Source: Pomacea canaliculata (Eukaryota > Mollusca > Gastropoda > Architaenioglossa > Ampullariidae). From it: a stretch of 64,000 nt of DNA. The notes below the pieces were generated by a model. That model did no database searches, was not told where the DNA came from, and was given only the letters and a program-made list of their open reading frames with translations. Of the stretch, positions 9,461-64,000 are shown one piece after another. The position numbers were made by a program, and so were the translations under genes. Within the stretch, counting starts at the first letter, position 1, and each line of letters starts with the position of its first letter. Location: the NCBI RefSeq assembly GCF_003073045.1, contig NC_037596.1, forward strand, positions 11,529,950 to 11,593,949, read 5' to 3'.

Positions 9461-9517
9461 AATGAGTGAATGCATTTTTATTCCCACTTATATTTAAGTG
9501 CTTTGTTATATTTACAG

Positions 9518-14730: not shown

Positions 14731-14785
14731 GTGAGTATAGTTTCAAGTTTGTATTAATAACTTCTGTAGAAACATTAGTGTTTAA

Positions 14786-25899: not shown

Positions 25900-26351
25900 G
25901 TAAGTACACGTATACTAAGTTGGATAACTAAAAATCTGGAAGTAGTTTTTTTTTTCAATCCATGAAAAGTGTTATCAATTTTAGTATTTCTGATTATTTA
26001 TGAGGTGTATACCTCAATAATTTAAAATATTATACAGGCGTCTGCTATTACGTCCGTTGTATCGTGCGCTACTTACCTTTGGCAATTTGTCACATGGCCG
26101 ACGCATGACATCGGAGGTATTTTATTATCCTAAACTTTTATTGCAAGAAAATATTATGGTGGAATAGCTGATTAGGGAAAATGGACATCAGAAACAAAAC
26201 TACATTTACAAAGTTTTAATGATAACAATATTAACTACTGTTTGAGACTGTTCAATCAAATTGAAACGTGCGCAACGCCTGGATGTTTAAAGGTGAGTAT
26301 AAATCTATATTAAAAACTTAACTAATCCGTCAGTTGTGCAAATAGATTATT

Positions 26352-26547
26352 CATTCACAAGGTTGCCAGCTGTCAGCATCAATCAGAGAGAGAATGAGAC
26401 ACAGTTCTGATTATTCGGACGCTGAAAGTCTGCATTCCTCGTGGTTCTGAAAAAACTTATTTTAGCACGAGAAATGCAAAATTTCAAAGTCCGAATAACC
26501 TGAACTGTCACTGTGATTGGTGTTGACAGATGGCAGTGTTGTGAATG
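26352..26547. mobile_element. Foldback (long inverted repeat) element
   Basis: The left arm (26,352-26,443, 'cattcacaaggttgccagctg' onward, ending 'gcattcctcgtg') is the imperfect reverse complement of the right arm (26,466-26,547, 'cacgagaaatgc' to 'ttgtgaatg'). The loop is about 22 bp. This is a MITE- or foldback-like hairpin in the 3' flank of E; it has no coding capacity. Confidence 0.65.
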
Positions 26548-26559
26548 GTGTACTGACGT

Positions 26560-27680
26560 GACGTAGTACACAGTGGAGTTCGTTGATTGCAGGTGCGAAT
26601 CCTAGGGAATACTTAATTAATTAACGGATGGGTTCTGGAGATTGAAAGTTATAGGTGAGGTTTATATCGCCTATATCTACCGATATCTGCAAACAATTTA
26701 AACCATTCAGTTGGTCTTTAAGGAAATTTGCTACAATTTAGCAAAGCACTGAGCTTCTAAAATACTACAGTGGAATACTTTTTATCAGTCTTTTTTTTTT
26801 TTTTTGGTGGGGGTGAAGTCTACAATTTTAGTTGATTTGTCATATTTTATATTGCTTTTTTGCTCACTTACAGCCTGGTCCTTAGCAGTGGCTGAAGCAC
26901 TGTGAGTAGCAGTAGTAGTTGAAAATAGATGTTTTTTCTGTTCTCTACACACAAGATTTTGCCAAACATGCTCAATCGTTTGACAGTATTTGATTTGTTG
27001 AAAATGGTATTAACCCCTGTTTTGGATGTTGGTGTAGAGATATGGCTGCATGTACAGAGAAAATGGTAAGCTTTAAGCCTGATGCATTGCGGATGAGCTT
27101 AAGTCTTTGACAAGACTTATCGTGGCTGAAATTCCTGTCACATCGTCCTATACACTGTCTATCTGCGAATCATGATGAGTAACATGCAAGCAGTTTGTGA
27201 GATATAACAGGAACATTTAAATATCACACTATCTCTCGGTATCACTTCCCTGTAACGGATTTCGAATGGAAACTGGATTTTCTTTAAACCTACTTGTCAC
27301 ATTCTTCAAACTGTCGAAGACAAAGCATATAACAGAAATTCTGTTTAAAAAAATTATAAAAACTTCTTGGCAAAATGTTTCATATGATACTTTTGGACCA
27401 CATATTTAGGAAAGAAAGAAACATAGAGTAAATAAAATGTTTGTATGAAGTGTGCTTAATAAATGAAATTTTTATGTTTTTGAATTTTTTTTAAATACTA
27501 ATAGTCTAATGATTTTCAATTTAAAAAACGTATCAATATTCTTCACGACATAATAATTAGGACATTTGAGATAAATTTAACGATTCTGCACATATTGATA
27601 GCTTTGTAAGTGTAAGTGAATACACATGATCATTGGATTGCTTTATTAGATAATACAATTATCATTACATACTATATCTC
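26560..27680. other. 3' flank of E, homologous to that of D
   Basis: Positions 26,820-27,090 match D at 21,630-21,790 and 22,140-22,200. No membrane exon like 49,177-49,329 is found here. A T-run lies at about 26,789-26,803. Confidence 0.45.
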
Positions 27681-27687
27681 AACAGAA

Positions 27688-27885
27688 GTCAATGTGCACT
27701 TCTAATGGGTGGAATGCAGATGGCTTAATAGACGGAGACCTAGATTTCTCAAACACAAGAACGACCCATGAAGCCATCACAGAAGTATGGGGGAAACAGA
27801 AATGCCGCCATCCACTTCACTGCCATGATTACAGGCAAACGACTGACAGAATTGGCGTTCACAAAAGTGCTTCTTCAAGATGAAT
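27688..27885 (+). pseudogene. Decayed cytoplasmic-tail exon of E
   Basis: Aligns to the last exon of F (52,572-52,781), including an acceptor 'ctcaacag'. F reads DGLVYGDLDFSN and E reads DGLIDGDLDFSN, so the ITIM tyrosine is aspartate (TAT to GAC). Downstream, small indels shift the frame across the second tyrosine motif (TEYAAI in F), and the frame returns at DYRQ against NYRQ. With no membrane exon nearby, this tail looks non-functional. Confidence 0.65.
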
Positions 27886-40100: not shown

Positions 40101-42141
40101 TTCTATTCTACTTTCGACATGTAACTGTTAACAAGAACACTACCTTTCTGAGGTTTCAGTGGGATTTTATGTTAACAGTAAAATATAGAAGACAGTTCTC
40201 AACTATTTTTCAAGCCACAAGCAATTTCTCTTTTGTTATATAACTAATCATAATCATGATGTAACATGTATATAGAGCCAATACTCTGCACCATTCAGGC
40301 CTAAAGCGCTGTACATCTAATTACACAGGTGTAGAAATATTCAAATGATAGAGGGGCGTTACAACGACTTGTCGCGCGAATATACAACAAGACCTCTTTG
40401 TTTCCTATTCGTGAGTTTGATTTCTTATGATCTGTCACCAAATACAACTAACCACACAACAATACCGTGTAGATGTCATGAATAATTCCTGCTGATATCA
40501 GGTTATAAAATATACACATATCTATGTTGAAGAAAAACATGACGTACTGCATCTATGCCAAAATATGGAACTACAAAAACTACAAAACACAATAAACTAC
40601 AATACCAGTTTTTCCACTCAAGTCCTCCTGTAGTACAGTGACAGTTTTGAGATCGCTGCTGAACCTGACGTCTATTGTATGGATGCATGTGCCATTTTTG
40701 AAGACATCACAACTGTTGTCCTCTCCTAAAAACACACCAAATAGCACAATGACAATTGAAAGCAACAGTAATAGGGTTGTTCAAAGCCTTCTAAGCCTCA
40801 CTCAGAAGAAACAAGACAGTTTTTAACAATTTTTCAATATAGTTCCCTTGACATCAATGCACTTGGGCCAGCGATGTTCGAACATTGCAACTCCATCATA
40901 GCAGAAAGTGGCCTAGCTGAGTTTCAAAAACTCCCCCACAGCATAATTATATGAAAATATAATTGTTTCTAAAATGGCGACCACGTAAGTAGGATTTGAG
41001 TTTAGGAAACAGGTTAAAGTCAGATGGAGCTAAATCTGCTAAGTATGGTGGATGGGGTAGTAATTCAAAATCACAGTTGAGTGTTTCACCTACTGCAACC
41101 TGACCAGAACAAACATCTGATCTCAGCTTTCCTCTACATTTCCGCTTGACTGCTTCCTTTAATTGTGTTACCTCTGAAAATGTCAACCCTTTTGCGGCTT
41201 TTCCTTTAGTTTCCGCATTCTTGAAACCAATCTTTTAGATACCTTGTTCATCCCCAAGATCTTACTTAAAACAGTGTGTACTAAACCATAACTGAAGCTT
41301 ATAGACTTAGCTAACTGCTGAACAGCAAGACGTCTGCCATACAAAACACACAGCAAATGCCATTAACTTGATCGTCTGTGGTTGAGGGTTTTGACCAAGG
41401 ACCTGAGCGAGGACTCTGCCCCGCTTGAATTCAGATGCCCACTACTTCACAGTTGCATAAGGAGTCCTCAGCAAGTGTCTGTATCGAATCCTTATGGATT
41501 TCCTTTGGTGTCATACCTTTGTTTGCTGACTGCTCAGGCCTCTGTTTTGTCTACTTTTAGATTTGTTGCATTTCCCTACACCTTTGTATAGGCCATCAGT
41601 GCACACACATTAAAAACAGAAATCTGTATCAGTTTTTCTAGTTATAAAAGAAGTGGTAGTGTGTTACCACAACTAAAATGTACAGCTATGGCTCTTCTAT
41701 CTTGGTGAGGCTTTATTCTTACTTTCATTTCTTACTTTTACTTTGTTACTAGAGCACCTTCCCATGTTCACATTCCCCACTTGGAAAAATAAAGTTGATC
41801 ATTGTTATTGTGGTTGTCAAGGCTTTGAACATTTTGAAAGATCTTGGTAAGTACCCATATCATATGACACGTTTGTGACCGGATCAACCGGTGAGAAGTG
41901 TGTACTTGTGGTGATTCCTCCTTAACTTCTTTCCGAATATTTTCACTATTTTACTCAGTTCCTCGTTCTTTGAGCGTTCTATGGACAACATACTCTGCAG
42001 TTTATTGCTTACTTTTAGTTAGCTGAAGGACCAAATTAACATACTTCAATGCACACACAATAATATATCAAAACAGCACTTACCGTAAATGACTTTCACG
42101 AGTATCAAAGACACGGAGATAAAATAGAAAACTAACGCCAT
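37195..42141 (-). CDS. M2: short-tailed Ig-like membrane receptor
   Basis: Six minus-strand exons: 42,141-42,084 (signal peptide MALVFYFISVSLILVKVIYG), 40,725-40,606, 40,052-39,864, 39,124-39,047, 38,174-38,069 and 37,270-37,195. Lengths 58+120+189+78+106+76 total 627 nt, an open frame of 208 codons plus stop. Exons 2-3 form one V-like Ig domain (CDVFKNGTC, ETIAVCDW, GHGTFPC). Exon 4 is an acidic stalk (SELKNFESESNTDNDERTPT). Exon 5 has one membrane helix (TIAISISVIISVAITAVVIM) followed by RRKR. Exon 6 gives a Lys/Gln-rich tail of about 25 residues with no tyrosine. The helix has no charged residue for pairing with an adaptor. Exon 6 is the least certain; a TGA just inside it closes the frame. 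Start codon is 1.17 kb from that of F, head to head. Confidence 0.7.
37654..38005. mobile_element. hAT-like MITE (composite) in M2 intron 5
   Basis: Flanked by the 8-bp duplication TTAATCAC (37,646-37,653 and 38,006-38,013). Left end CAGTGTTGTCCATAGG; right end on the other strand CAGGGTTGTCCATGGG. A second left-type end (CAGTGTTGTCCATTAGG) starts at 37,865, so one copy seems nested or tandem in another. Rich in CCCATGGGA palindromes. The matching place in M1 (about 4,300-4,330, 'tttatcacccaaccatcc') is empty. Confidence 0.8.
38650..39010 (-). other. Hydrophobic open stretch conserved with M1 intron
   Basis: Between exons 4 and 5 of M2 the minus strand reads KCFLLYVVVIIAAMMFVTVC and FIYQQF. 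M1 has related DNA at 4,985-5,240 but with a stop in that frame. No clean acceptor is seen, and exon 4 already joins exon 5 in frame. It may be a lost or alternative membrane exon. Confidence 0.3.
39136..39250 (-). mobile_element. LINE/SINE 3' end remnant plus AT-rich tract
   Basis: The minus strand ends CTAGTGAGATAATAAAGTTC then (AATTG)n, a non-LTR 3' tail. It is next to (TA)n and poly-A at about 39,210-39,240. Located in the intron before exon 4 of M2. Confidence 0.5.
40815..41570 (-). mobile_element. mariner-type transposon relic in M2 intron 1
   Basis: The minus strand shows the N-terminal part of a mariner transposase (GMTPKEIHKDSIQTL; GRRLAVQQLAKSISFSYGLV; HTVLSKILGMNKVSKR) and the third catalytic region (LLPHPPYLADLAPSDFNLFP) with its C-terminus (LRGRHFRNN). 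The middle, with the first two catalytic aspartates, is missing and there are several frame breaks. It is a dead, internally deleted copy. Confidence 0.75.
41690..41830 (+). mobile_element. LINE-type 3' UTR remnant
   Basis: Matches 34,370-34,460 ('actagagcacct.tcccatg', 'ccactt/gggaaaaataaa') and ends near 'aataaagttgatcattgttatt'. No coding part is left. Confidence 0.5.
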
Positions 42142-43307: not shown

Positions 43308-46300
43308 ATGCAGAAAGCATTGCAGCTGTTCTATCTATTACTCCTGTCACCGAAAATACACTCTTCACAGCAGTGTAAGTTTGAATTTACTTTCTTTGAT
43401 AGCGTTTTATTGAGTTTTGAAGGTACAAATAATTTTGAAACAAAAAACAATATGCTCGAGTACAAAGTTAGGGTATTATTAGATCAGAAACTGTATGCGA
43501 AACAATTAACAATAAATACAGAGGTGTTTCTATTTTAAATATAAGTCTCTGTTGGAGACATTAGACACAGGGTTACACTGCAGATAAATGCAAATTAACA
43601 CAATCTTTTGCTAGACCCACACTAATAATTTGATGCGTTAAACTGCATGTAAAATGTCTCTTCCAAATTATATATATATACACTACATTTCTAGCATTTG
43701 TTACAGGTCCCCTCTTGAAATTTCTCAACTTTAACACAGACACCCTTTCTGTTCCGGAAAGCAGTTTGGTCAATCTAACTTTCTGGCTGAACGACTCAGG
43801 ATGTAAAAAGTCTGATGTAGTCTATAGAGTTGAGGTACAAACCAAACTGAACGTGGGCAGCTGGGAATATGATGGAAGAATATTTCAGACAAACCATTGT
43901 ACCGAAATAACAAGCACGTCTGTTGGTTGCCTCAGTGCAGCAGGTCCAGCAAGACTTTACAAGGTACTAAACCGATCACACGATGAAATCGAGTGGACCT
44001 GGACATGGAAAGACTCTGATGACATCAAAACCATGAAAAAGGGACTAAAACTTTATGTTTTATGTAAGTTTTTCTTTGTTTATGTTTCTCTATATGCTTT
44101 CAAGTAATGTGGTGTTAATGTGTGATTTTGTAAAAACAATCAATGAAAACAGTTAGGTGTATATATGATGACAAAGTCACAAGTTTTATTTCATTTTAAC
44201 ACTTTAAATTACTTGGTGTATGCCATCATCTGGCATGACTAAGCACGAAATCAATATGATTATGAGTTAAAATCCGCTGAATTACTACAGATAACTCAGT
44301 CTGCTCTAAACGGGGCCTGGATTATTGCTTCGGTACAACAGATGGAGAGCCCTGCAATTAACAGTTCTCTAAATAGGACACTGGGAGATAACAGGTTAAA
44401 TCCGCAGTTCTCAAATTGTGGGGCGAGCTCCCCTGGGGGGGGGGGGTACGACGTGCTTACAAGGGGGCGCGAAGGTGGTCATTTTAAAAAGTTTCTTATA
44501 TATAGGTATTAGTGAAATTAGCTTACATTGCTGGCTAAGGGGGGGGAGGGGGGCGGACGTACCTTTGTTCGTCAGGGGGGGGGGGGGGGGGGGGGCGTCA
44601 CAAGTAAAAGGTTGAGAACCGCTGGGTTAAATCGTTTTAAAGCAATTGTCGTCTTTACTCTTTAATTTGGATGTTCGCATTAAATATGTAGGCACACGTT
44701 CAGTTAAAATCTAACAATGGCGAATAACCGTGATTTTCTTTAGAATAAACCTTGTACAAAGGCTTAAAGGGTAAAGGCGACTTTGGTGGAGGTAGGTATA
44801 GAAGAAACGTTAGGGTATAACGTCTCTGGTATAGCCAAGCACTGTGGTTTTTGGTCAAAATGACTTGTTTACTGTTCACCATTGTCTCTTTATCAGTGCA
44901 CATCACGTTCAAAATATAAATAGTGAATTTGAATAAAGTATCTTTGTCTATCAAAGTACATGTCTATTAATCAGTTTCAATTACTTGCAGAGTTAGTTTT
45001 CCTTAAACATTTTCAGTCATTCGCAGCAATGGCAGTATATCTCTAACCAAGTGAATGCAAATACGACGAAGGATTTATGAAATAATTTTAAGCTATTAAA
45101 AAAAATTAAATGAATGCACTTGAATTTATAAGTGTCCACTGATAGTTCTTCGAATGAAAGTAGATTGGCTTATCTATCTACTAAGACCCCTCACAATTAC
45201 AACTTTGGTGGATTTTAGTGAGTCATTTAGAAAGTTGCTTAGGATACAATTATGAGTACACACCTAAATTTAAAGAGACGACAAAATTTATTTTAAAACC
45301 TTCTACTTATTTAAGAAGTTCAGACCAAGGCAGAATTTATTTAACCAAAATAATTAACGAATAAATTTTTGTTTTTATTTAATGAGCAAACAAGTTTATT
45401 AGTCGCCAAAATAATCATCGTAAAAGTATTGTTTCATAGAGATGTTATTCGACATCGTCATCTGTACCTCCGTCTTTGCTGCTGACTATGCTTCCAAGGT
45501 AGGTGAAACGGTCAGACTCTGTAATACATTCTCCATGTAGGTGGAGTGGGGCTTCTTGCTTTGTGTTGACCCACATTACCTCCGTCTTCTTGATGTTGAT
45601 GGTTAGGCCAGTCATCGCTGCTTCTTCTGCGAGCCGAGTGAGATTTGTCTGTGCGTGTTGTTGCTTGTGGGACAACAGGCTGATGTCATCCGCAAAGTCA
45701 AGATCCTCAAGCTGCCTGGCGAAGGTCCACTGAACGCCCGTGTTGCTGTTAGAAGTTGTTCTTCTCATGATCCAGTCTATGACGATCAGGAAGATTGTCG
45801 GTGAGAGCAGACAACCTTGCTGAACTCCAGTCCTCACTGCGAAGGGGTCAGTCAGCTTATCCTTGTGTATCACCCGGCATGTCGAGTTCTCATACAACTG
45901 CTGGATGATGGCAATGAACTTTGGTGGAAATCCGTAGTGCTGCACCAGTTTCCAGATGGTTTCTCTGTCTACAGAGTCAAAGGCCTTCTCAAAATCTACA
46001 AAGGTTATGTGTAGTGGTGATATTCCAGGTCCCTATCCTGGTTTTTGCCTTGGCCGTGAGAAGATGGGTCGGTGAGCTGGCTTCCCGAGGGCTTTCACCA
46101 GCACGCGTCATAAACCTCTCCGAAGAGGGATCTTCCAGTCGAGGCTCCAGATGTACAGTTATTGTGCTTGCGGTTTGTGTAACAGTAACTTTTTTACATG
46201 GTCGGGTTGTTAGCCCTACCACAACCTAATTTACCTCTAGGTGAGGTGTCCACCTTTGTCGCCTCTGACGACATGTCTGGCTGGATGGCAGAGTGACCCT

Positions 46301-49300
46301 ATTCTTGCAGTGCTCGCTAGGCAAGCAAACCCCGGGGTCACACAGGGGAAGGCCTTCACACATGACATAAAATGACGTAAAATATTGTGACGTCAGAACA
46401 AAATGACGGTACTCCAAGCCAAAGGTCAGCGTCTACACGCAATACGAGCACAATCCGTAGGCCAAATAATCAAACATGTCATAAAAGCTGGAATGCATTT
46501 CATACGAAATGTAGCTGCACATAGCACATCCAACAGACGACACCAGTCCTACTGAACGACGAATGACCCTAGCACACACAAAAGTTCACCGATCCAACGG
46601 ACATGAAGCTCACTGAACTGTGCCGCCGATCGCCAAGTCAGAAGGTTGACAAAGAATTGCAAAGAATTGCAGTCACCAAAGCGAAGAGGCACTACACTCC
46701 ACACACACGATGGCAGGCCCATCAAAAATTATACACAAGCACAAGTCCAACACCAGGAGGATGTCAGAGAAAACACAAAAGACAACATAGCTCTTCCCCC
46801 TCCAGCCAGTTGGGCCAGGGGACATCACTCTCATATATCTCTTATGTAAACTATATTTGTAAAAAAAACAGACAGTAAAATGCTTTTTATAAAGAAAAGT
46901 TCTTTTTTAGTGATATTACATTCTAAAAGCATCTGACCTAGTAGAAGTATTGAACAAAAAACTTAAATAAAATTTTATTATTTTTGTAACTAATTAGAAG
47001 CATTGCTAATAGAAACTAATAATCCAAATGCTCGAAGTCCAAGAGAAAAGAAAGAAAAAGAAAGAGAGATAAGCTTAGTTGATAAGACATTTATGTCATA
47101 TAATGTTACCGAAGAACACTTGCATGTTTTCTGATTATTTTTTCCTGCTACATTTTCATCGAGTACAAGTGTTTGGTTATAAATCATTTTTAAAACAAGA
47201 TTTCTTTATTACATCTACAGTAGTATTGAAATGAGCTGCTTAACTTATCGTTACATCTTGCTCCACCTAATATCGAAAAAACACATACTCGTTTAATCAA
47301 ATTTAGTACCTTCTTATATTTGTGTGCATGTACAACAACTCACTATTATTGATGTCTTTAACTTGAAATTTAGAAATATGAAAACAATCTTATTCAAGTG
47401 TAAAGTATTTTCGAGATAAATATAAAGTACATAATGATCAGACATGCTAACAACTTAGATTGCAACTTATGTAAATCTTTGTTGAAAAGACAAAAGAACA
47501 GAAACATGAAATGACACAACTGTAACGACAAAGTTTTCTACTAGTAGAGAACAAAGAATTATTCCTATTTAAAACATCTTCTTAGGCTGACTTATATATA
47601 CAGCATGTGTAGTAAGTTTTTAAAGGAGAAGATAAAAAATTACATTCAAGGTGTGCGTGCGCGACCGTGCACGTGTGTGTCTGTGTGCAATCAGATCCAC
47701 CCAGAGTCGAAAGCCTGACTGTAAATGGACATGAGGCAAATGGTACTTACCTGTTGAATGATGGACAAAAGGTCAACGTTTTCTGCTCGTTTGAGAAAGG
47801 GAACCCAGCATCACGTTTTCACTTGCTGAATAAAAGTGGAGCTGAAATGGCCACTCCTTCTACAGACAAATACATCAACCAGTCACTTACAGTACATTGT
47901 GAGGATGACTGGCCAAGAATCAGTTGTGAAGGGGAGAGGTCAAAACAAAATCGGTCTGTGTCTTTTCTTGTCAAGTGTGAGTATTCCTAATTTTGCTGTT
48001 AGTTATGTATGTGTTTTTAATCGTGTGTAACTTAAGATACGTTCTAATGTTTGTACTTTCTCTATTTAGACAATCATGTGCATTTTCTAATGCGACAACA
48101 TTAAAAGTATCTAATAATCGACGAGTTCATCATCCACGCTTTTCATTTCCTCCTAGAGACACTTCGATACAAATATAATAATATTTAATCTAGAGGGTCG
48201 TCTAGAAATCATGTTAAATTATTTCACAACATTCCTGTAAAATTCGCACACACACAGATATACAATCAGGTAGTTGTTGATTTATTAGTCAGCACGTGCT
48301 GCTGGTGATTGATTAGTTTTAATATTTTCATTCGAAGAAAGATAAGTTTGAAGTATAGACTTAAAAAGTAAAGTGAACAATTTACATCAACAGGTTATTT
48401 TTGTACTTTTTTAATTGTCACAGGTCCTCCTCAGTTTGTTAACAGCACTGTGAAAATTGACAATTCTTCGTATGAGCAAACTATAACACTACACGTAAAG
48501 TCTTACTCTTCAGCCACAGGTAAATGTGTCTTGACATCATTGTCTTCACTCAAGAACACTGAAAGACAGGTGAGCTGTGACATAAGAGGTGAGCCGCCTG
48601 ATCTTGTCTTAAGCTTTTACCTTGGCAACGAGAACAGCAGCATCAAAGAGTGGATACTAACCTATCAAAATGAAGTGGGTTCTGCCAACATAACAATAAT
48701 CCTTAATAAATACTTAGGTGAGTATACTAAACAACTGTTATTTATTTACAAATGTGAATGTAAACAAGAGACAGACTCTGTGGCCGATGAATAGAAACAA
48801 AAACTCGAGCATGGAAACCTGAAATATATTCTTACTTAGTTTACAGCATGCTATATTGCTATATATATATATGTGTGTGTAAGGAGTCAGTTCAAATACA
48901 GTAAAAATAATCATTATCCCTAGAGATATTTACCTACTACGATTGAAGTAGAGACTATAGCAAGTATAGAAAGCATACAGAACAGAATATAAAAAATGGC
49001 GTACTGCGTTTTTTGTAGCTTTTACATATAATTAACTGTCCTAAAAGGTTGGACATTTGCATTAGCTCTGCTACGCTCCAATGAAAGACTTACAACAGAA
49101 TGTAGTATTTTCCTTTAACAAGGGATCTTTATTACTTGAAATTATTTTCCTCGAAAAGATCTTTATCTGTTTACAGAAGATGGCACAGAAAAAGACCCGT
49201 TGTTTACAGACAAGAATGGCAAGATGGGTCCATTAATTTTTACCTTCTCCGTTTTGCTGATTGTTATTATCATCGCTTTAGTCATTGTTGCTGCTCTTGT

Positions 49301-52300
49301 GGTAAGGAAAAAGAGAAAGGAAAATCAGGGTAAGATCTTAAAATTAAATTATAAACATTTTAATAAATTTGATTTTGTATGTACCTGCTTTGTGCTATGT
49401 GAAAGGCTAAATAAACTCTTGCAAACTTGATTTTCTCTGGTTCTACAGGCCTTAGTGGCATTGTAAAAGGTACATGTTTACTATTAAAAGTACTAAATGG
49501 ATTATACATTATATAGATTTCTATCTATGAAGTAATACATGTATGAAGAAGAATAGAAACTTTTAAAAATAAGAAACATTTTCACTTTTTACATTTATAT
49601 ATTTGTGTAAAGTAAGTTTTTAAAGTAAATGTTGTCATTTCTATCTTTTGTCAGGCAATTCAGCAAGGTATGTGTAGTCTTATGTGACATTAGTTCTTTC
49701 AGTTCTTTGATTTCTTGTGTAGTTTTGTCTATAAAATCAAATCAACATTTTATAAACTCTTTCTCTCCTATCTTCACATAATAATATTGTAAATGTTTTT
49801 CAAGCAGATAATGATTCTAACAGTTTTATATTTAATGTTGATCCATTTAGATAAAGTTGATAAGAGTTTGATGTATCACCAAGTAAAGGACATAAACATA
49901 AGTAATTTAGTTAAAATGAAATACACTCGTCAACTTTAAGGATATTACATTCAATTGAATTTGTGGTGTGCTCCTTAATAAATGACATTGAGTTTTAGGA
50001 TTTTAACTTTCTAACAACGTAAATTTAATTTTTGTATTTTAATGTGAAAAGAAAGAAGCTTCTTAACAAAAATAAAATTGTTTCGTGTCAAAAGCTGATT
50101 GAAAAAACCGACAGAGTATTCTACTTATTTCGTTACGAGAAAATAATGTTTTATTTTGTGCGAAATTCTAGCCTTGAAGAAAGAAGTGCTGATTTAAGAG
50201 GCAGCTTTACAGAAGACATTTCAAGTAAGTGATTTCAAATTCAAGAACGTGTTTGGTCTCTTTGTTAAGTTTTGTTCGTTTGTTTGATATTTATTGTATT
50301 TTTTGCATCGATTTCTTTGGGTTTTTTAAAAATTGCTGTAGCAGGAAATTAGTTTAAAAATCCATTTTAACCAAGTTCTGAAAACCGTCAGTATTCTTTG
50401 GACGTTGAAGACTCGTGAGCTCGAGCCCCTGCTTAAGATTTTGCATCATGATATAACATGATCGCCGGTATTACTACCAATACTAGCTAATACTTGCTTC
50501 TTTTTAGTGAACTTTAGTAGTGCTGTAATATCTGAACAAGGTGTCAGTACAAACCATGTGACCGATTTCCTGCGTCAGATCTTACTCGCATTTCTAGCAC
50601 GTAAATTGACGGAATAAAATTCTTGTTAAAATTGTGTCCTGCCGTGGTTATTACTTTTTTAAATAGCTGACAGTCATCTACATAATCACACCTACGTGTC
50701 AGCCTCAGCTGTTCGTAACCAAAAGAAAGGGCGAAGTAAAGGTAAGTTGTCGTTAAATAGTTTCATATAATAAATAGTGGTTGGAGAATATAAATACCAT
50801 GATCAAGGAAAAAAAAAATAATAAAAAAATAAAAATAATGACAATGCTAACTCTACTAGTTATTAAGTCAACAAATCTAGCAATTAAGCAGTATAAAAAT
50901 CCATTTATTTGTTCTTTAGATATTACACATCAGATCACATTCCCTTTAACAACAGCGAACTAAGAAAAGGAATCATAAAAAATAAAGAGAAAATCAGTCT
51001 AAAAAAATCGAAACAAAAGATAAACAGGAGAACGAAATTACACACCAACAAACACTAACGAGTTTTATCAATTTCTTTTACACGTGACAAATAAGACCAG
51101 TAAAAGATTTTGTGCTCCAGGTGAATCTTCTTCAGGACCAGTTGAAGAAACTTATACTTCTGCGACCGAAGTTCGAGCGAAAAAACGTCTAGAAAAGCTT
51201 GGTAAAAAAAAACCTTTGATAAAGTTATCATCTAGAATAATTTTACATTCTATTTTCAGTTATGATTATTTCTGTCCAATTTTTATCAGAGCATATTTAA
51301 TTATTTTAGTTATCTATTTATTCGTTGTATTTTCCCCACATTTTATGGTGTTGTTCCCTGTGAGCTAGTTTACAATATGTTTGAAATCACCACCCTTTTC
51401 TTCTTTTGCTAATATACATTCTTTCTTTCTCCATCTCCCACTGTCACACAGTCTCTCTTTCTCTCTTGAATTGGACACAAATTCACGTGGATTTAAAGAA
51501 ATAACTACATGGCTTGATACAGTCATCAAAGTGTGTGATTCATTTGACCATAAAAGTTGCAATAGTCACACCACTGCTTATTGCTAATTACATAAACAAA
51601 AATATTAAATTTTTATTTCCGTCTTATTCATTTTTATTCAATAGTATATTTGAAATAAACAGGAAATATGTATAGAGGACAAAATTTACATAAAGATGAC
51701 TTAAAATCGCAGTAATAACCCCATTTCTGACTGAACAAGCTTTTACATGTTAAACCAAATTTGTATTTTTGCATTCGGTTATGAGGGGGGAGGTGTGCTC
51801 TTAAAGCTGATTTGGACTCTTTCGTAGATGATGTCGATTGCGATGCTGACGATGCTGACGATGGTGATGTCTCCGCCTCAGCAGAAATAATGGTAATCCT
51901 TGCGCCTCATTCACGTCCAATGAACTAGAGAGGTCCTTGGCAAAACTTAGTTCATCCCAGCTTGAATTTCTGCAAAGACATAGTTTTAATCACTTGTGGT
52001 ACACATAAAACGTGTGATACATAGATATCAAACTATACAGTAAATAAATTGAGTTACATCTTAGATATGTTTATTATCTTTTTCAACTTTAAAGAGACTC
52101 ATCTTTGATATAATAAAAAAATTATCCCTTCTATATTTCAGGCGTTAGTGTCACGACCCTTTTGAGATCTGAAAAATCCACATGAAATATTTTGGCCTAC
52201 CCTAAGAGAAAAACACACTTTTCTTTTATCAATTGTTTGTGCTATATTATTGCAAAATTGTAAAATAAATAAAGATAAATTGCTGATGCGTTTCTAGATT

Positions 52301-52781
52301 TATACGCTTTTCTGTATCATTTACTGGCTTTCTAATGTCGTCTGCGTCTAAGGCAAAACTCCTCAAGAAATTGCCATTAGTATCTTATTCCGCCTTAATA
52401 ACGACGGATTATATATATGTAACAGATAATTATCTATTTTTTTGTGTCGTAAATGCTTCACTTTAATTCGTCACCTTCTTCACCTTTCTTTCTTTCAGCC
52501 TGGTTCTATAGTCATGTTCTGCCAAACAGCAAACTAAGCAAATACAAAGTTGATTTATTTTATTGTTACAGGTGGCAGCGCCCACTTCTGGGGTGAAGAA
52601 TTCAGATGGATTAGTATATGGAGACCTAGACTTCTCGAACAAAACAACGTTTAATAACGTCGCTAATGAGTCTGTGTCAGAAACAGAGTACGCCGCCATC
52701 AACTTCACCGCCATGGTCCCCCCACCACGTAATTACAGACAGAAGATAGATAAAAAGGACAAAAGAGATTATCGAAACTGA
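43308..52781 (+). CDS. Gene F: ITIM/ITSM-bearing Ig-like transmembrane receptor (complete)
   Basis: Twelve exons: 43,308-43,374 (signal peptide MQKALQLFYLLLLSPKIH), 43,707-44,063 (N), 47,695-47,976 (Ig2), 48,424-48,717 (Ig3), 49,177-49,329 (membrane), 49,449-49,469, 49,655-49,667, 50,172-50,224, 50,667-50,741, 51,121-51,201, 51,828-51,892 and 52,572-52,781. The lengths sum to 1,671 nt: 556 codons plus stop, with all phases matching. Ectodomain: N with VNLTFWLNDSGC, EYDGR and WTWTWKD; Ig2 with VNVFCSF and CEDDWPRISC; Ig3 with GEPPDLVLSF and NEVGSA. Membrane helix LIVIIIALVIVAALVV is followed by RKKRK. Tail motifs in order: HTYVSASAV, ETYTSATEV, an acidic run DDVDCDADDADDGD, the ITIM LVYGDL and the ITSM-type TEYAAI, then PPPRNY. 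These would recruit SH2-domain phosphatases or adaptors when phosphorylated (family knowledge). An inhibitory or switch immune receptor is inferred; the ligand is unknown. Confidence 0.85.
44402..44624. mobile_element. hAT-like MITE in intron 2 of F
   Basis: Ends are CCGCAGTTCTCAAA and, on the other strand, CAGCGGTTCTCAACC. It is flanked by a perfect 8-bp duplication GGTTAAAT (44,394-44,401 and 44,625-44,632). Internal G-runs, no transposase. The same insertion is at 57,687-57,896 in the duplicate, so it predates the duplication. Confidence 0.85.
44575..44595 (+). repeat. Poly-G run of 21
   Basis: An uninterrupted G-run inside the MITE; the duplicate copy at about 57,861 has only six. It is either unstable DNA or an assembly uncertainty, and other G-runs lie at about 44,437 and 44,539. 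Confidence 0.9.
45440..46420 (-). mobile_element. Non-LTR retrotransposon relic with fused endonuclease start and RT, in intron 2 of F
   Basis: The minus strand first shows a leader and the start of an AP-endonuclease domain (KAKTRIGTWNI near 46,040), then directly the reverse-transcriptase core: FEKAFDSVDRE, GVQQGCLLSP, the catalytic LDFADDISLLSH (about 45,675-45,710), GLTINIKKTEV and TYLGSIVSSKDGG. The endonuclease body and the N-terminal RT part are missing and the frame changes at the join, so the element was internally deleted before the duplication. The RT resembles LINE families common in mollusc and flatworm genomes; clade not assigned. Confidence 0.75.
46430..46880. other. Unassigned repeat-like segment in intron 2 of F
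   Basis: GC-richer than its surroundings and ending in A-rich DNA. A plus-strand frame at 46,603-46,878 has no recognised domain. It could be part of the neighbouring LINE or another element. Present also at about 59,715-60,170. Confidence 0.35.
50508..50617 (+). CDS. Alternative terminal exon of F (short, tyrosine-free tail)
   Basis: Follows an acceptor 'ctttttag' and joins the exon ending at 50,224 in frame (TCA A|TG), adding MNFSSAVISEQGVSTNHV and FLRQILLAFLARKLTE before TAA. The stop overlaps an AATAAA poly-A signal at 50,613-50,618. It would replace all downstream exons and so remove every tail tyrosine. The same exon, with the same stop and signal, is in G at 63,783-63,892. Use of this exon is inferred; the duplicates are too young for its conservation alone to prove function. 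Confidence 0.5.
50613..50618 (+). promoter_or_regulatory. AATAAA poly-A signal of the alternative exon
   Basis: The hexamer overlaps the TAA stop of the short-tail exon; it is kept in G at 63,888-63,893. Confidence 0.45.
52572..52781 (+). CDS. Last coding exon of F with ITIM and ITSM-type motifs
   Basis: Begins in phase 0 behind 'attgttacag', joined from the acidic exon 51,828-51,892 that ends ATA ATG. It codes VAAPTSGVKNSDG, LVYGDL (fits S/I/V/L-x-Y-x-x-L), TEYAAI (fits T-x-Y-x-x-V/I), the proline run VPPPRNY and a basic end KKDKRDYRN. A decayed relative is at 27,688-27,885. Confidence 0.8.
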   Translation: MAAPTSGVKNSDGLVYGDLDFSNKTTFNNVANESVSETEYAAINFTAMVPPPRNYRQKIDKKDKRDYRN

Positions 52782-56599: not shown

Positions 56600-59500
56600 A
56601 TGCAGAAAACATTGCAGCTGTTTTATGTATTACTCCTGTCACCGAAAATACACTCTTCACAGCAGTGTAAGTTTGAATTTACTTTCTTTGATAGCATTTT
56701 ATTGAGTTTTGAAGGTACAAATAATTTTGAAACAAAAAACAATATGCTCGAATACAAAGTTAGTGTATTATTAGATCAGAAACTGTGTGCAAAACAACAA
56801 TAAATACAGAGGTATTTCTATTTTAAATATGTCTCTGTTGGAGACATTAGACACAGGGTTACACTGCAGATAAATGCAAATTAACACAATCTTTTGCTAG
56901 ACCCACACGTATAATTTGATGCGTTAAACTGCATGTAAAATATCTCTTCCAAATTATATATATATACACTACATGTTCTAACATTTGTTACAGGTCCCCT
57001 CTTGGAATTTCTCAACTTTAACACAGACACCCTTTCTGTTCCGGAAAGCAGTCTGGTCAATCTAACTTTCTGGCTGAACGACTCAGGATGTAAAAAGTCT
57101 GATGTAGTCTATAGAGTTGTCGTACAAACCAAACTGGACGTGGGCAGCTGGGAATATGATGGAAGACTATTTCAGACAAACCAGTGTACCGAAATAACAA
57201 GCACGTTTCTTGGTTGCCTCAGTGCAGCAGGTCCAGCAAGACTTTACAAGGTACTGAACCGATCACACGAGGAAATCGAGTGGATCTGGACATGGAAAGA
57301 CTCTGGTGACATCAAAACCATGAAAAAAGGACTAAAACTTTATGTTTTATGTAAGTTTTTCTTTGTTTATGTTTCTCTATATGCTTTCAAGTAATGTGGT
57401 GTTAACGTGTGATTTTGTAAAAACAATCAATGAAAACAGTTAGGTGTATATATGATGACAAAGTCACAAGTTTTATTTCATTTTAACACTTTAAATTACT
57501 TGGTGTAGGCCATCATCTGACATGACTAAGCACGAAATCAATATGATTATGAGTTAAAATCCACTGAATTACTACAGATAACTCAGAGCTCTAAACGCGG
57601 CCTGGATTATTGCTTCGGTACAACAGATAGAGAGTCCTGCAATTAACAGTCCTCTAAATAGGACACTGGGAGATAACAGATTAAATCCGCGGTTCTCAAA
57701 CTGTGGGGCGAGCCCCCCTGGAGGGGGGGGGGGAAGTCGCGACGTGCCTACAAGTGGGGCGCGAAGGTGGTCATTTTTTAAAACTTTCTTATACAGGTAT
57801 TAGTGAAATTAGCTTACATTGCTGGCTAATGGGGGGCGCGCGGACGTACCTTTGTTCGTCAGGGGGGCGTCACAAGCAAAAGGTTGAGAACCGCTGGGTT
57901 AAATCGTTTTAAAGCAACTGTCGTCTTTACTCTTTAATTTGGATGTTCGCATTAAATATGTAGGCACACGTTCAGTTAAAATCTATCAATGGCGAATAGC
58001 CGTGATTTTCTTTAGAATAAACCTTGTACAAAGACTTAAAGGGTATAGGCGACTCTGGTGGAGGTAGGTATAGCCACAAACGTTAGGGTATAACGTCTCT
58101 GGTATAGCCAAGCACTGGTTTTTGGTCAAAATGACTTGTTTACTGTTCACCATTGTCTCTTTATCAGTGCACATCACGTTCAAAAATATAAATAGTGAAT
58201 TTGAATAAAGTATCTTTGTCTACCAAAGTAGAATGTCTATTAATCAGTTTCAATTACTTGTAGAGTTAGTTTTCCTGAAACATTTTCAGTCATTCGCAGC
58301 AATGGCAGTATATCTCTAACCAAGTGAATGCAAATACGACGAAGGAATTTATGGGTGTTTCCACTGATTGTTCTTCGAATGAAAGTAGATTGGCTTATCT
58401 ATCTACTAAGACCCCCCACAATTACAACTTTGGTGGATTTTAGTGAGTCATTTAGAAAGTTGCTTAGGATACAATTATGAGTACACACCTCCCATTCGGA
58501 GGTACTCTATTGCTGATTTTTAGCATTACTATAATGTAATGCGCTAAATAGAATTTATAAATTTAAAGAGAAAACAAAATTTATTTTAAAACCTTCTACT
58601 TATTTAAGAAATTCAAACCAAGGAAGAATTTATTTAACCAAAATAATTAAGGAGTAAATTTTTGTTTTTATTTAATGAGCAAACAAGTTTATTAGTCGCC
58701 AAAATAATCATCGTAAAAATATTGTTTCATAGAGATGTTATTCGACATCGTCATCTGTACCTCCGTCTTTGCTACTGACTATGCTTCCAAGGTAGGTGAA
58801 ACGGTCAGACTCTGTAATACATTCTCCATGTAGGTGGAGTGGGGCTTTGTGTTGACCTGCATTACCTCCGTCTTCTTGATGTTGATGGTCAGGCCAGTCA
58901 TCGCTGCTTCTTCTGCGAGCCGAGTAAGCTTTGTCTGTGCGGGTTGTTGCTTGTGGGACAACAGGCTGATGTCATCCGCAAAGTCAAGATCCTCAAGCTG
59001 CCTGGCGAAGGTCCACTGAACGCCCGTGTTGCTGTTAGAAGTTGTTCTTCTCATGATCCAGTCTATGACGATCGGGAAGATTGTCGGTGAGAGCAGACAA
59101 CCTTGCCTCACTCCAGTCCTCACTGCGAAGGGGTCAGCAAGCTTTCCCTTGCGTGTATCACCCGGCATGTCGAGTTCTCATACAACTGCTGGATGATGGC
59201 AATGAACTTTGGTGGAAATCCGTAGTGCTGCATCAGTTTCTAGATGGTTTCTCTGTCGACGGAGTCAAAGGCCTTCTCAAAATCTACAAAGGTTATGTAT
59301 AGTGGTGATATTCCAGGTCCCTATCCTGGTTTTTGCCTTGGCCGTGAGAAGATGGGTCGGCGAGCTGGCTTCCCGAGGGCTTTCACAAGCACGCCTCATA
59401 AACCCCTCCGAAGAGGGATCTTCCAGTCGAGGCTCCAGATGTACAGTTATCGTGCTTGCGGTTTCTGTAACAGTAACTTTTTTACATGGTCGGGTTGTTA

Positions 59501-62500
59501 GCCCTACCACAACCTAATTTACCTCTAGGTGAGGTGTCCACCTTTGTCGCCTCTGACGACATGTCTGGCTGGATGGCAGAGTGACCCTATTCTTACAGTG
59601 CTCGCTAGGCAAGCAAACCCCGGGGTCACACAGGGGAAGGCCTTCACACATGACATAAAATGACGTAAAATATTGTGACGTCAGAACAAAATGACGGTAC
59701 TCCAAGTCAAAGGTCAGCGTCTACACGCAATATGAGCACAATCCGTAGGCCAAATAATCAAACATGTCATATAAGCTGGAATGCATTTCATACGAAATAT
59801 ATCTGCACATAGCACATCCAACAGACGACATCAGTCCTACTGAACGACGAATGACCCCAGCACACACAAAAGTTCACCGATCCAACGGACATGAAGCTCA
59901 CTGAACTGTGCCACCGATCGCCAAGTCAGAAGGTTGACAAAGAATAGCAAAGAATTGCAGTCACCAAAGCGAAGAGGCACTACACTCCACACACAGGAGA
60001 TGGCAGGCCCATCAAAAATTATACACAAGCAGAAGTCCAACACCAGGAGGATGTCAGAGAAAACAAAAAAGACAACATAGCTCTTCCCCCTCCAGCCAGT
60101 TGGGCCAGGGGACATCACTCTCATATATCTCTTGTGTAAACTATATTTGTAAAAAAAAACAGACAGTAATGATATTATCAGTAGTGATATTACATTCATC
60201 TATTTCCATTAAAGGAAAAAAATTCTAAAAGCATCTGACCTAGTAGAAGTATTGAACAAAAAACTTAAATAAAATTTTATTATTTTTGTAACTAATTAAA
60301 AGCATTGCTAATAGAAACTAATAATCCAAATGCTCGAAGTCCAAGAGAAAAGAAAGAAAAAGAAAGAGAGATAAGCTTAGTTGATAAGACATTTATGTCA
60401 TATAATGTTACCGAAGAACACTTGCATGTTTTCTGATTATTTTCTCCTGCTACATTTTCATCGAGTACAAGTGTTTGGTTATAAATCATTTTTAAAACAA
60501 GATTTCTTTAATACATCTACAGTACTATTTCAATGAGCTGCTTAACTTATCGTTACATCTTGCTCCACCTAATATCGAAAAAACACCTACTCGTTTAATC
60601 AAACGTAGTACCTTCTTATATTTCTGTGCATGTACAGCAACTCATTATTACTGATGTCTTTAACTTGAAATTAAGAAATATAAAAGCAATCTTATTCAAA
60701 TGTAAAGTATTTTCGAGATAAATATAAAGTACATAATGATCAGATATGCTAACAACTTAGATTGAAACTCATGTAAACTTTGTTGAAAGGACAAAGGAAC
60801 AGAAACATGAAATGACACAACTGTAACGAAGATAACAAAGAATTATTCTTATTTAAAATATCTTCTTAGGCTGACTTATAGCATGTGTGGTAAGTTTTTA
60901 AAGGATAAGATAAAAAATTACATTCAATGTGTGCGTGCGCGAGCGCGCGTGTGTGTGTGTGTGCAATCAGATCCACCAAGCGTCGAAAGTCTGACTGTAG
61001 ATGGTCATGAGGCAAATGGTACTTACCTGTTGAATGATGGACAGAAGGTCAACGTTTTATGCTCGTTTGAGAAAGGGAATCCTGCATCACGTTTTCACTT
61101 GCTGAATAAAAGTGGAGCTGAAATGGCCACTCCTTCTACAGACAAATACATAAACCATTCACTTACAGTACATTGTAAGGATGACTGGCCAAAAATCAGT
61201 TGTGAAGGGAAGAGGTCAAAACAAAATCGATCTGTGTCTTTTCTTGTCAAGTGTGAGTATTCCTAATTTTGCTATTATGTATGTGTTTTTAATTGTGTGT
61301 GACTTACATTCTAATGTTTGTGCTTTCTCTATTAAGACAATCATGTGCATTTTCTAATACGACAACCTTAAAAGTATCTAATAATCGACGAGTTCATCAT
61401 CCACGCTTTTTATTTCCTCCTAGAGACACTTCGATACAAATATAATAATATTTAATCTAGAGGGTCGTCTAGAAATCATGTTAAATTCTTGTTATTCCAC
61501 AACATTCCTGTAAAATTCACACACACACAAATATACAATTATGTAGTTGTTGATTCTTTAGTCAGCACGTGTTGCTAGTGATTGGTTTTAGTATTTTCAT
61601 TCAAAAACAGATTAGTTTGAAGAATAGACTTAAAAAGTAAAGTGAACAATTTACATCAATAGGTTATTTTTGTATTTTTTGATTGTCACAGGTCCTCCTC
61701 AGTTTGTTAACAGCATTGTGAAAATTGACAGTTCTTCGGATGAGCAAACTATCACACTACACGTAAAGTCTTACTCTTCAGCCACAGGTAAATGTTTCTT
61801 GACACCATTGTCTTCACTCAACAACACTGAAAGACAGGTGAACTGCAACATAAGAGGAGAGCCACCTGATCTTGTCCTAAGCTTTCCCTTTGCCAATGAG
61901 AACAGCAGCATCAAAGAGTGGATACTAACCTATCAAAATGAAGAGGGTTCTGCAAACATAACAATAATCCTTAATAAATACTTAGGTGAGTATACTAAAC
62001 AACTGTTATTTACTTACAAATGTGAATGTAAACAAGAGACACACTATGTGGCCGATGAATAGTAAACTAAAACTCGAGCATGGAAACCTGATATATATTC
62101 TTACTTAGTTTACAACATGCTATATTGCTATAAATATGTAAGGAGTCAGTCCAAATACAGTAAAAAGTACAAATTATCCTTAGAGATAAATATGTGCCTT
62201 CTAATGGAACGACAGAAGTAGAGACTATAACAAGTATAGAGAGCATACAGAACAGAATATAAAAAATGGCTTACTTTGTTTTTTATAGCTTTTACATATA
62301 ATTAACTGTTCTAAAAGGTTGGACATTTGCATTAGCTCTGCTACGCTCCAATGAAAGACTTACTACAAAATGTGTTATTTTCCTAAAAAAGGGATCTTTA
62401 TTACATGAAATTGTTTTCCTTGAAAAGATCTTCATCTATTTACAGAAGATGACACAGAAAAAGACCCGTTGCTTACAGACAAGAATGACAAGATAGGTCC

Positions 62501-64000
62501 ATTAATTTTTACCTTCTCTGTTCTGCTGATTGTTATTATCATCGCTTTAGTCATTGTTGCTGTTCTTGTGGTAAGAAAAAAGAGAAAGGAAACTCATGGT
62601 AAGATCTTAAAATCAAAGTATAAACATTTTAATAAATTTTAATTTGTAGTACCTTCGTTGTGTTATGTGAAAAGGTAAACTCCTGCAAACTTGATTTTCT
62701 TTGGTTCTACAGGCCTTAGTGGCATTGTAGAAGGTACATTTTTACTATTAAAAGTACTAAGTTGATTATACATTATATAGATTTCTATCTATGAAGTAAT
62801 ACATGTATGAAGAAGAATAGAAACTTTTAAAAATAAGAAACACTTTCACTTTTTACATTTATATATTTGTGTAAAGTAAATGTTGTCATTTCTATCTTTG
62901 TCAGGCAATTCAGCAAGGTATGTGTAGTCTTATGTAAAATTAGTTCTTTCAGTTCTTTGATTTCTTGCGTATTTTTGTCTATAAAATCAAATCAACATTT
63001 TATAAACTCTTTCTCTCCTATCTTAACACAATAATATAGTAAATTTTTTTCAAGCACATAATGATTCTAACAGTTTTATATTTAACTTTGATCCATTTAG
63101 ATAAAGTTGAGAATAGTTGTTTGCTGTATCACCAAGTAAAGGACATAAACATAAGTAATTTAGTTAAAATGAAATACACTTGTCAACTTTAAAGATGTTG
63201 CATTAAATCGAGTTTGTAGTATGCTCCAAACTAAATGACTTTAAAATGACTAAATGAGTTTTAGGATTTTAACTTTCTCACAACGTAAATTTTATTTTTG
63301 TATTTTAATGTGAAAAGAAAGAAGCTCTTTAACAAAAATAAAATTGTTTCGTGTCAAAAGCTGATTGAAAAAACGGACAGAGTATTCTACTTATTTCGTT
63401 ACGAGAAAATAATGTTTTATTTTGTGTGAAATTCTAGCCTTGAAGAAAAAAGTGCTGATTTAAGAGGAAGCTTTACAGAAGACATTTCAAGTAAGTGAGT
63501 TCAAATTCAAGAATTTGTTTGGTCCTTCTTTGTCCCTTGGTTAAGTTTTGTTTGTTTGTTTGATATTTATTGTATTTTTTGCATAGATTTCCTTGAGGTT
63601 TTTAAAATTGCTGTAGCAGGAAATTAGTTTAAAAATCCATTTTAACCAAGTTCTGAAAACCGTCAGTATTCTTTGGACGTTGAAGACTCGTGAGGTCGAG
63701 CCCCTGCTTAAGACTTTGCATCATGATATAACACGATCGCTGGTATTACTACCAATACTATCTAATACTTGCTTCTTTTCAGTGAACTCTAGTGGTGCTT
63801 TAATATCTGAACAAGGTGTCAGTACAAACCATGTGACCGATTTCCTGCGTCAGATCTTACTCGTATTTCAAGCACGTAAATTGACGGAATAAAATTCTTG
63901 TTAAAATTGTTTCCTCCCGTGGTTATTACTTTTTTAAATAGCTGACAGTCATCTACATAATCACACCTACGTGTCAGCCTCAGCTGTTCGTAACCTAAAG
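56600..64000 (+). CDS. Gene G: Ig-like transmembrane receptor, duplicate of F, cut by window end
   Basis: Exons: 56,600-56,666 (signal peptide MQKTLQLFYVLLLSPKIH), 56,994-57,350 (N), 60,971-61,252 (Ig2), 61,692-61,985 (Ig3), 62,446-62,598 (membrane), 62,713-62,733, 62,905-62,917, 63,438-63,490 and 63,942 to beyond the end. Every exon has the same length and phase as in F and all are open. N differs from F at 10 of 119 residues and Ig2 at about 7 of 94, while only about 4 of 14 nucleotide changes in N are silent. The membrane helix (LIVIIIALVIVAVLVV) and the basic anchor RKKRK are kept. The last visible exon reaches the HTYVSAS motif; the ITIM exon would lie outside. Probably an active paralogue with a diverged ectodomain. 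Confidence 0.8.
57687..57896. mobile_element. hAT-like MITE in intron 2 of G
   Basis: Duplicate of 44,402-44,624 with shorter G-runs; ends CCGCGGTTCTCAAA and GGTTGAGAACCGCTG. The right target copy is GGTTAAAT; the left has one change (GATTAAAT). Confidence 0.8.
58740..59710 (-). mobile_element. Non-LTR retrotransposon relic in intron 2 of G
   Basis: Duplicate of 45,440-46,420, with the same fusion of the endonuclease start to the RT (GVRQGCLLSP, LDFADDISLLSH). It has extra small indels since the duplication, so it is non-coding. Confidence 0.7.
59715..60170. other. Unassigned repeat-like segment in intron 2 of G
   Basis: Counterpart of 46,430-46,880. A 120-codon minus-strand frame here is not kept in the F copy, so it is unlikely to be a gene. 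Confidence 0.35.
60932..60964. repeat. GC/GT dinucleotide microsatellite before Ig2 of G
   Basis: A (GC)n(GT)n run ends a few bases before the Ig2 acceptor, replacing the usual pyrimidine tract. In F the same place is CG/GT-mixed. It could affect recognition of this exon. Confidence 0.6.
63783..63892 (+). CDS. Alternative terminal exon of G (short tail)
   Basis: Counterpart of 50,508-50,617: acceptor 'cttcttttcag', in-frame join to the exon ending at 63,490, MNSSGALISEQGVSTNHV to RKLTE, stop, and an overlapping AATAAA. Its acceptor pyrimidine tract is slightly better than in F. Confidence 0.5.

Follow-up and report, generated by a model that had tools for sequence, protein, structure and literature searches.

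Does a gene of the snail Pomacea canaliculata encode an inhibitory receptor whose tail resembles that of vertebrate PD-1? The question is raised by positions 43308-52781 (+ strand) of the window, by which we mean the whole 64,000-nucleotide stretch analyzed (contig NC_037596.1, positions 11,529,950 to 11,593,949). The answer that we favor, with evenly balanced confidence, is an inhibitory receptor with one membrane pass, from an immunoglobulin (Ig)-like family that has expanded locally; it would dock a phosphatase of the SHP2 type and would be convergent with PD-1 in the tail only.

The gene was rebuilt from the raw sequence, each internal exon border being placed on AG/GT. Twelve exons, with AG/GT at all internal borders, join into a single open frame of 556 codons followed by a stop at 52781, in agreement with the coordinates, exon count, phase and length of the original prediction; the signal peptide, three ectodomain exons, single helix and tail that it had described were all recovered, as were its four tail motifs, HTYVSASAV, ETYTSATEV, LVYGDL and TEYAAI. 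The assignment of LVYGDL as an immunoreceptor tyrosine-based inhibitory motif (ITIM) and of TEYAAI as a switch motif (ITSM) stands by the consensus definitions printed in PMC12151841, (S/I/V/L)xYxx(I/V/L) and TxYxx(V/I), respectively. The sequence accordingly supports a predicted type I receptor that carries both motifs; gene structure, topology, motif sequence and spacing, and exon phases are established. Two further copies of the gene are referred to below, copy B (decayed, upstream) and copy C (a tandem duplicate, downstream). Features of the gene, all on the + strand, are as follows (D1-D3, ectodomain exons).

43308-43374, + strand: exon 1, signal peptide MQKALQLFYLLLLSPKIHSSQQ; hydrophobic start; 91% identity with copy C
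43707-44063, + strand: exon 2, ectodomain D1; the four intact D1 copies in the window were aligned
47695-47976, + strand: exon 3, ectodomain D2 (putatively Ig-like)
48424-48717, + strand: exon 4, ectodomain D3 (putative Ig-like beta sandwich)
49177-49329, + strand: exon 5, stalk, transmembrane helix and RKKRK stop-transfer
49449-49469, + strand: exon 6, tail microexon, phase 1-1; present in copy C
49655-49667, + strand: exon 7, 13-nt tail microexon, phase 1-2; present in copy C
50172-50224, + strand: exon 8, tail, phase 2-1; present in copy C
50667-50741, + strand: exon 9, tail motif HTYVSASAV (Y423); tyrosine kept in copy C
51121-51201, + strand: exon 10, tail motif ETYTSATEV (Y450); probable duplicate of exon 9
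51828-51892, + strand: exon 11, acidic and tyrosine-free, with VSASAEIM at its C-terminal end; the exon called with least certainty, and the one that fixes the reading frame of exon 12
52572-52781, + strand: exon 12, ITIM LVYGDLDF, ITSM TEYAAINF and stop codon; relic copy at 27698-27842
52611-52634, + strand: ITIM region LVYGDLDF (Y503)
52683-52706, + strand: ITSM region TEYAAINF (Y527)

The 556-residue protein has a single predicted helix, followed by RKKRK; nowhere else does the Kyte-Doolittle mean over 19 residues exceed 1.6, and within the helix it peaks at 3.55, at residue 358. In residues 1-350 lie 11 N-glycosylation sequons. The tail comprises 180 residues, with tyrosines at 423, 450, 503, 527, 542, and 554, and LVYGDL and TEYAAI stand 24 residues apart, C-terminal to the helix. 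Database searches with the whole protein gave five weak Pfam matches, none over the cut-off, and three PDB sequence matches (best E 0.12); Rfam gave no match, and scans of viral and prokaryote contigs gave 15, 13, and 57 pattern matches with no relative among them.

The consensus of bony-vertebrate PD-1 reads (I/V)(D/E)YG(E/V)L(D/E)F and (T/V)EYATIx(F/Y), at Y223 and Y248 (PMC12151841). LVYGDLDF matches five of the eight and TEYAAINF six of the seven constrained positions of this bony-vertebrate consensus, 11/15 in total. When shuffled tails were scored identically over spacings of 20-30 (n = 200,000), the best reached 9/15 (six shuffles) and none reached 10, a figure that overstates the surprise because the PD-1 yardstick was picked after the tail had been seen. 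Common to both tails are the ITIM-then-ITSM order, the spacing (24 here, 25 from Y223 to Y248 in PD-1), the Gly at position +1 from the ITIM phosphotyrosine (pY+1), and the Phe at both pY+5. The snail protein differs in its three ectodomain exons and in additional tail exons that bear TYxSA motifs; its motifs probably also lie further from the membrane than those of PD-1. The ectodomain of PD-1 is a single V-set domain, homologous to CD28-family receptors; no V-set match was given by Pfam in the 556-residue protein or in the D1, D2, and D3 sets. Homology to PD-1 is rejected, the ectodomain being unlike, and the likeness would sensibly be read as convergence restricted to the tail.

Preferences described for SHP2 are Leu at -2 and +3 for its N-SH2 domain, Thr at -2, Ala at +1, and Ile at +3 for its C-SH2 domain, and Phe at +5 for both (PMC12151841); each of these is found in the gene's motifs, with N-SH2 set on LVYGDLDF and C-SH2 on TEYAAINF. 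Human PD-1 is apparently the sole ITIM with Gly at pY+1 among those compared in PMC8631942, where this Gly is described as inhibiting recruitment of SHP1.

Chance was assessed first for the bare pair: the six-frame translation was scanned for open stretches of 30 residues or more that hold an ITIM and an ITSM at a distance of 15-40 residues. One such pair, that of this gene, is found in the window; 30 Markov-simulated windows hold 1.27 on average, with at least one pair in 23 of them. Among 200,000 shuffles of the 180-residue tail, 0.16% hold a bare pair, and nine hold two motifs of the form [ILVST]xYxx[ILV]x[FYW] 10-40 residues apart. Chance as a full explanation is accepted for bare patterns in raw DNA and rejected for the extended motifs, since none of 200,000 shuffles reaches 10/15.

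These frequencies bear on a different reading of the tail. YxxPhi is the motif of sorting signals for clathrin adaptors, and YGDL and YAAI both fit it; the two could serve to control receptor uptake, their likeness to ITIM and ITSM being secondary, and the ease with which a bare pair arises in raw frames would suit such a reading. It leaves unexplained the Leu and Thr at -2, the Phe at both +5 (an aromatic +5 pair in 9/200,000 shuffles) and the 24-residue spacing, and the motifs lie further from the membrane than is usual for such signals; we consider it unlikely.

Under the inhibitory reading that we favor, the gene would be expressed as a surface receptor, and ligand binding or clustering via D1-D3 would bring it close to an activating receptor. 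Y503 in LVYGDLDF and Y527 in TEYAAINF would be phosphorylated by a kinase of the Src family; the doubly phosphorylated tail would then be held by the tandem SH2 domains of an SHP2/corkscrew-type phosphatase, the first motif by N-SH2 and the second by C-SH2. Recruited in this way, the phosphatase would open, and nearby signaling would be dampened.

The downstream duplicate bears on whether such a receptor is a working gene.

56600-64000, + strand: copy C, tandem duplicate at +13.27 kb; the window end cuts exon 9, ahead of the ITIM exon

Exons 1-9 of copy C are in frame, with AG/GT borders, and fully open over the 433 visible codons. Compared with the gene, its exons differ at 66/1299 bases (5.1%), its introns at 294/5961 (4.9%) and its 5' flank at 12%. 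Changes over the 433 codons number 23.5 at 286 synonymous sites versus 42.5 at 1013 non-synonymous sites (Fisher p = 0.006, on rounded counts); the synonymous rate (dS) is 0.087, the non-synonymous rate (dN) 0.043, and dN/dS 0.50 overall. By part, dN/dS is 0.84 for D1, 0.23 for D2, 0.49 for D3, 0.68 for the stalk and helix, and 0.88 for tail exons 6-9, the D1 and tail values coming from few changes (four in the tail). Constraint appears modest, because exon and intron divergence are equal; the gene and copy C are probably both working genes under mild, uneven constraint. Reverse-transcriptase fragments lie on the minus strand at 45445-46032 and 58779-59177 (Pfam RVT_1, E 3.5e-23 and 5.8e-13, respectively), in the large second intron of both copies, so that the element was probably inserted before the tandem duplication.

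The upstream copy is of another kind.

24573-27842, + strand: copy B, decayed; D1 and D3 exons, and a degenerate last exon at 27698-27842

Neither a D2 exon nor a transmembrane exon was found in copy B. The ITIM region of its last exon reads LIDGDLDF, with Asp in place of the tyrosine; two 1-nt deletions before or at the ITSM shift that motif out of frame, and AAIHF remains in another frame. Mismatches to exon 12 are spread equally over the three codon positions (14/44, 13/46, and 14/46), and the relic therefore fits a dead exon. GDLDF and AAI-F are common to relic and gene, from which we infer that the +3 and +5 residues of both motifs predate the copy B duplication. The original prediction had staked itself on the tyrosines being kept in relatives; taken literally, the exon of copy B has lost them, but a dead-looking relic says little about living copies.

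Several points, with the late choice of the PD-1 yardstick among them, weigh against an inhibitory receptor that docks SHP2. A bare ITIM and ITSM pair is expected about once per 64 kb in six frames and is no evidence by itself. No sign of selection on the ITIM/ITSM exon is apparent in the window, where the exon is intact in one visible copy and the relic of copy B is the sole other; tail exons 6-9, with one synonymous and three non-synonymous changes between the gene and copy C, are uninformative on selection. Some 126-150 residues separate Y503 and Y527 from the membrane. No benefit of Gly at pY+1 was found for either of the SH2 domains of SHP2, Glu at pY-1 and Asp or Glu at pY+4 may not serve SHP2, and several experiments saw no role for the ITIM of PD-1 itself (all PMC12151841). 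Part of the PD-1 likeness is for this reason without a known SHP2 rationale, the pY+1 Gly, pY-1 Glu and acidic pY+4 not being tied to that enzyme. The SHP2-docking reading is favored nonetheless, because the in-frame model is complete and copy C is open over 433 codons with a synonymous excess, and because the motifs fit the ITIM and ITSM definitions, several SHP2 preferences, and 11/15 PD-1 positions.

How the tail is spliced determines whether these motifs would be translated. Exon strength was judged by eye; by this measure the weak spots of the model are exon 11 (weak donor, acidic low-complexity run) and the donor of exon 10. No second copy of exon 11 was found in the window. If exon 11 is skipped onto the annotated acceptor of exon 12, the ITIM/ITSM frame is lost and the protein ends early. 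One further acceptor is suggested by the sequence.

52572-52578, + strand: possible second acceptor for exon 12, whose AG ends at 52578, 7 bases into the exon

A direct junction from exon 10 to this AG keeps the ITIM/ITSM frame, so that exon 11 is not the only support of that frame. Removing exon 5 (the helix), 6, 9 or 10 singly leaves the reading frame intact; removing exon 7 or exon 8 by itself does not. Splice variants of the tail might in this way tune output: exons 6, 9, and 10 would be skippable in frame, and the choice between exon 11 and the exon 12 acceptors would decide whether the ITIM and ITSM are translated. Exons 9 and 10 are probably duplicates of each other, their alignment score being reached by 1/5000 shuffles. 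The match of exon 11 to exon 9 is reached by 43/5000 shuffles (VSASA only), and exon 10 is not matched (3236/5000 shuffles); exon 11 might be a third copy of the tyrosine exon. Exons 9 and 10 (50667-50741 and 51121-51201) carry a repeated tyrosine module, TYxSAxxVR, outside the ITIM, ITSM and ITAM (activation motif) patterns.

The original prediction had called the family duplicating and fast-changing. Tandem copies of D1, D2, and D3 across the window bear out the former: in total, D1 is found at five places (one with an internal stop), D2 at six, and D3 at seven, and family members at 0-26 kb, besides the gene and copy C, account for three D1 (the one with the internal stop included), four D2, and five D3. 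Tandem D2-D3 and D1-D2-D3 units lie at 41-850, 9517-10320, 13212-14735, and 18804-20618. Around the D1-D3 units at 0-21 kb, tblastn found no copy of exons 9-12. Downstream of the D2-D3 and D1-D2-D3 units there are eight strongly hydrophobic stretches, one of which, at 3629, starts with GPLI like exon 5 (tblastn E 2.6); membrane forms of the 0-21 kb units may exist. Among 15 D2 pairs, dN/dS is 0.11-0.49 in 14 and 0.84 in one young pair, with 10 of the 15 saturated (dS >1); three D3 pairs, with the fourth unit, the gene, and copies B and C left out, give 0.15-0.25. Positive selection finds no support, no dN/dS above 1 being seen in the parts of the gene and copy C, the 15 D2 pairs or the three D3 pairs. 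Fast change holds for copy number; in sequence these comparisons give no sign of positive selection, yet constraint is weak in places.

From the same facts the ITIM/ITSM exon might be seen as a remnant, in a locus giving mostly tail-less, alternative-tail or dead products, with its intact frame a lag before decay. The broken state of the other visible exon 12, the weakness of exon 11, whose skipping onto the annotated acceptor removes the frame, and the tblastn result at 0-21 kb fit this reading; 556 codons and 11 introns that are intact speak against it, as does copy C, whose frame stays open as far as exon 9 can be seen and whose overall dN/dS is 0.50; it seems improbable to us.

Another use of the tail would be as an activating or switch tail, in which TEYAAI would bind either an SH2 adaptor of the SAP/Grb2 kind or a kinase of the Src family, with further docking sites in the TYxSA exons 9 and 10. 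TEYAAI fits the ITSM definition TxYxxI, exons 9 and 10 resemble a tyrosine module that was duplicated (1/5000 shuffles), and copy C retains the tyrosine of exon 9. The spacing of an ITAM is YxxL/I-x6-8-YxxL/I, and it is absent among the six tail tyrosines. High-affinity, phosphorylation-independent binding of SAP needs a hydrophobic residue at pY-1 (PMC12151841), where this tail, like PD-1, has Glu; we regard such a tail as quite improbable.

The original prediction had further described the ectodomain as Ig-like, which is moderately supported for D2 and D3 and unproven for D1. For D2, Pfam Ig_2 is matched in three of six copies (best E 6e-4), the gene's own D2 being without an Ig match, and the D2 profile gives four weak matches in PDB, all to Ig-superfamily proteins (best, SYG-2 Ig, whole-sequence E 0.03). 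For D3, the case is made by a predicted fold: the best of five AlphaFold2 models has a predicted local distance difference test score (pLDDT) of 79 (range 56-79), and Foldseek gives a best E of 7.6e-4, with 1/1853 matches at E <=0.001 and most of the best 50 of the 1853 being Ig domains (query TM-score 0.40-0.66). Pfam gives an Ig match in none of the seven D3 copies; the best PDB matches of the D3 profile, to designed armadillo repeats (E 0.0024), were set aside as a composition artefact against the fold result. D1 reaches a pLDDT of 45 in AlphaFold2; its profile search gives only one antibody chain at E 0.18, and its set has no Ig match in Pfam. Compared mutually, the D1, D2, and D3 profiles show no link (probabilities <1%). 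The D2 and D3 sets also match some non-Ig Pfam families weakly, which led no further.

Should the tail be in use, it would place a PD-1-like pair of docking sites for SHP2 in a protein that is unlike PD-1 and outside vertebrates. One could then ask whether SHP2, an ancient enzyme, dictates the spacing of checkpoint motifs and the choices at pY+1 and pY+5, and expanded invertebrate transmembrane receptor clusters would gain a concrete, testable signaling output. A bolder proposal, which we consider rather unlikely, is that an invertebrate Ig-like receptor independently evolved a full PD-1-type tandem tail, with Gly at pY+1 and Phe at pY+5 in its first motif, TEYA-I-F as its second, and some 25 residues between them, and that PD-1/SHP2 checkpoint logic is a general bilaterian solution. 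Splicing of the exon that sets the frame would then act as the gate, and paralogues lacking the motifs would modulate the receptor as decoys in a paired-receptor cluster.

A small receptor-like gene family that looks unrelated occupies the minus strand, at 42141-36379 with a second copy at about 7580-6073. Its copies have a signal peptide and two exons with cysteines, in which the copies agree at 53% of 30 and 55% of 65 residues. Inspection by eye suggests that the copy at 36-42 kb goes on with a stalk, a transmembrane helix and a tail rich in Ser/Thr that has no tyrosine; the family matches no Pfam family over the cut-off. At 40947-41234, minus strand, stands a fragment, HPPYLADLAPSDFNLFPKLK, which we take to resemble the end of a mariner-type transposase; Pfam gives no match for it.

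That such motifs are best known from vertebrate immune receptors, as originally stated, is true, and ITIMs in receptors of Botryllus, Hydractinia and amphioxus have already been published. The FcoR of Botryllus, alongside which Hydractinia is cited, are clustered Ig-superfamily receptors of 520-610 residues that have a signal sequence, cross the membrane once and in some cases hold ITIMs in the tail; they differ in having V-Ig, sushi and two C2-Ig domains with ITIM, hemITAM or core motifs, and the available text of PMC12065747 mentions no ITIM and ITSM pair. That the snail gene is a self/non-self (allorecognition-type) receptor like FcoR or Hydractinia Alr, and not an anti-parasite or checkpoint receptor, is very unlikely in our view, since for all the likeness of plan, in which clustered paralogues have an Ig-like ectodomain, a single helix and a tail with an ITIM (PMC12065747), Pfam matches no sushi domain in the 556-residue protein and no dN/dS exceeds 1.

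A functional precedent for invertebrate ITIM-type inhibition, which by analogy would support the inhibitory reading, is amphioxus BbLcLRR; it inhibits through ITIM or ITIM-like tyrosines in a human T-cell line and associates with SHIP1, less with SHP1/2, but it differs in its leucine-rich repeat ectodomain and in its motifs, DDYATV, HDYSEV, and HDYDDP (PMC8211107). Among snails, the polymorphic transmembrane clusters PTC1/PTC2 and the TM1-Ig clusters of Biomphalaria are likewise clustered single-pass transmembrane genes, and some B. sudanica clusters include Ig (PMC7494358, PMC10875847); the present gene has a predicted single-pass topology and lies in a cluster. In those sources, "ITIM" and "tyrosine" are absent from the main text of PMC10875847, and "tyrosine" and "cytoplasmic" from the available text of PMC7494358. 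Mollusc Ig-type immune receptors are also known from oyster: CgIgIT2, reported with an ITAM, has five Ig domains, and CgSiglec-1, inhibitory by the title of its report, has two I-set domains; a PD-1-type tail is described for neither in the accessible parts of these reports. The fibrinogen or lectin domain that, joined to Ig, marks the FREP and VIgL proteins of snails was not matched by Pfam in the 556-residue protein. A literature search, which covered titles and the starts of abstracts, with subscription papers mostly outside it, showed, among the entries listed, no ITIM and ITSM pair or PD-1-type tail in a mollusc, and no ITIM and ITSM pair of PD-1 type elsewhere outside vertebrates. ITIMs in clustered invertebrate receptors and single-pass receptor clusters in snails are thus already known; what appears to be new in the snail gene is a PD-1-type pair outside vertebrates, in a protein that would not be a member of the PD-1 family.

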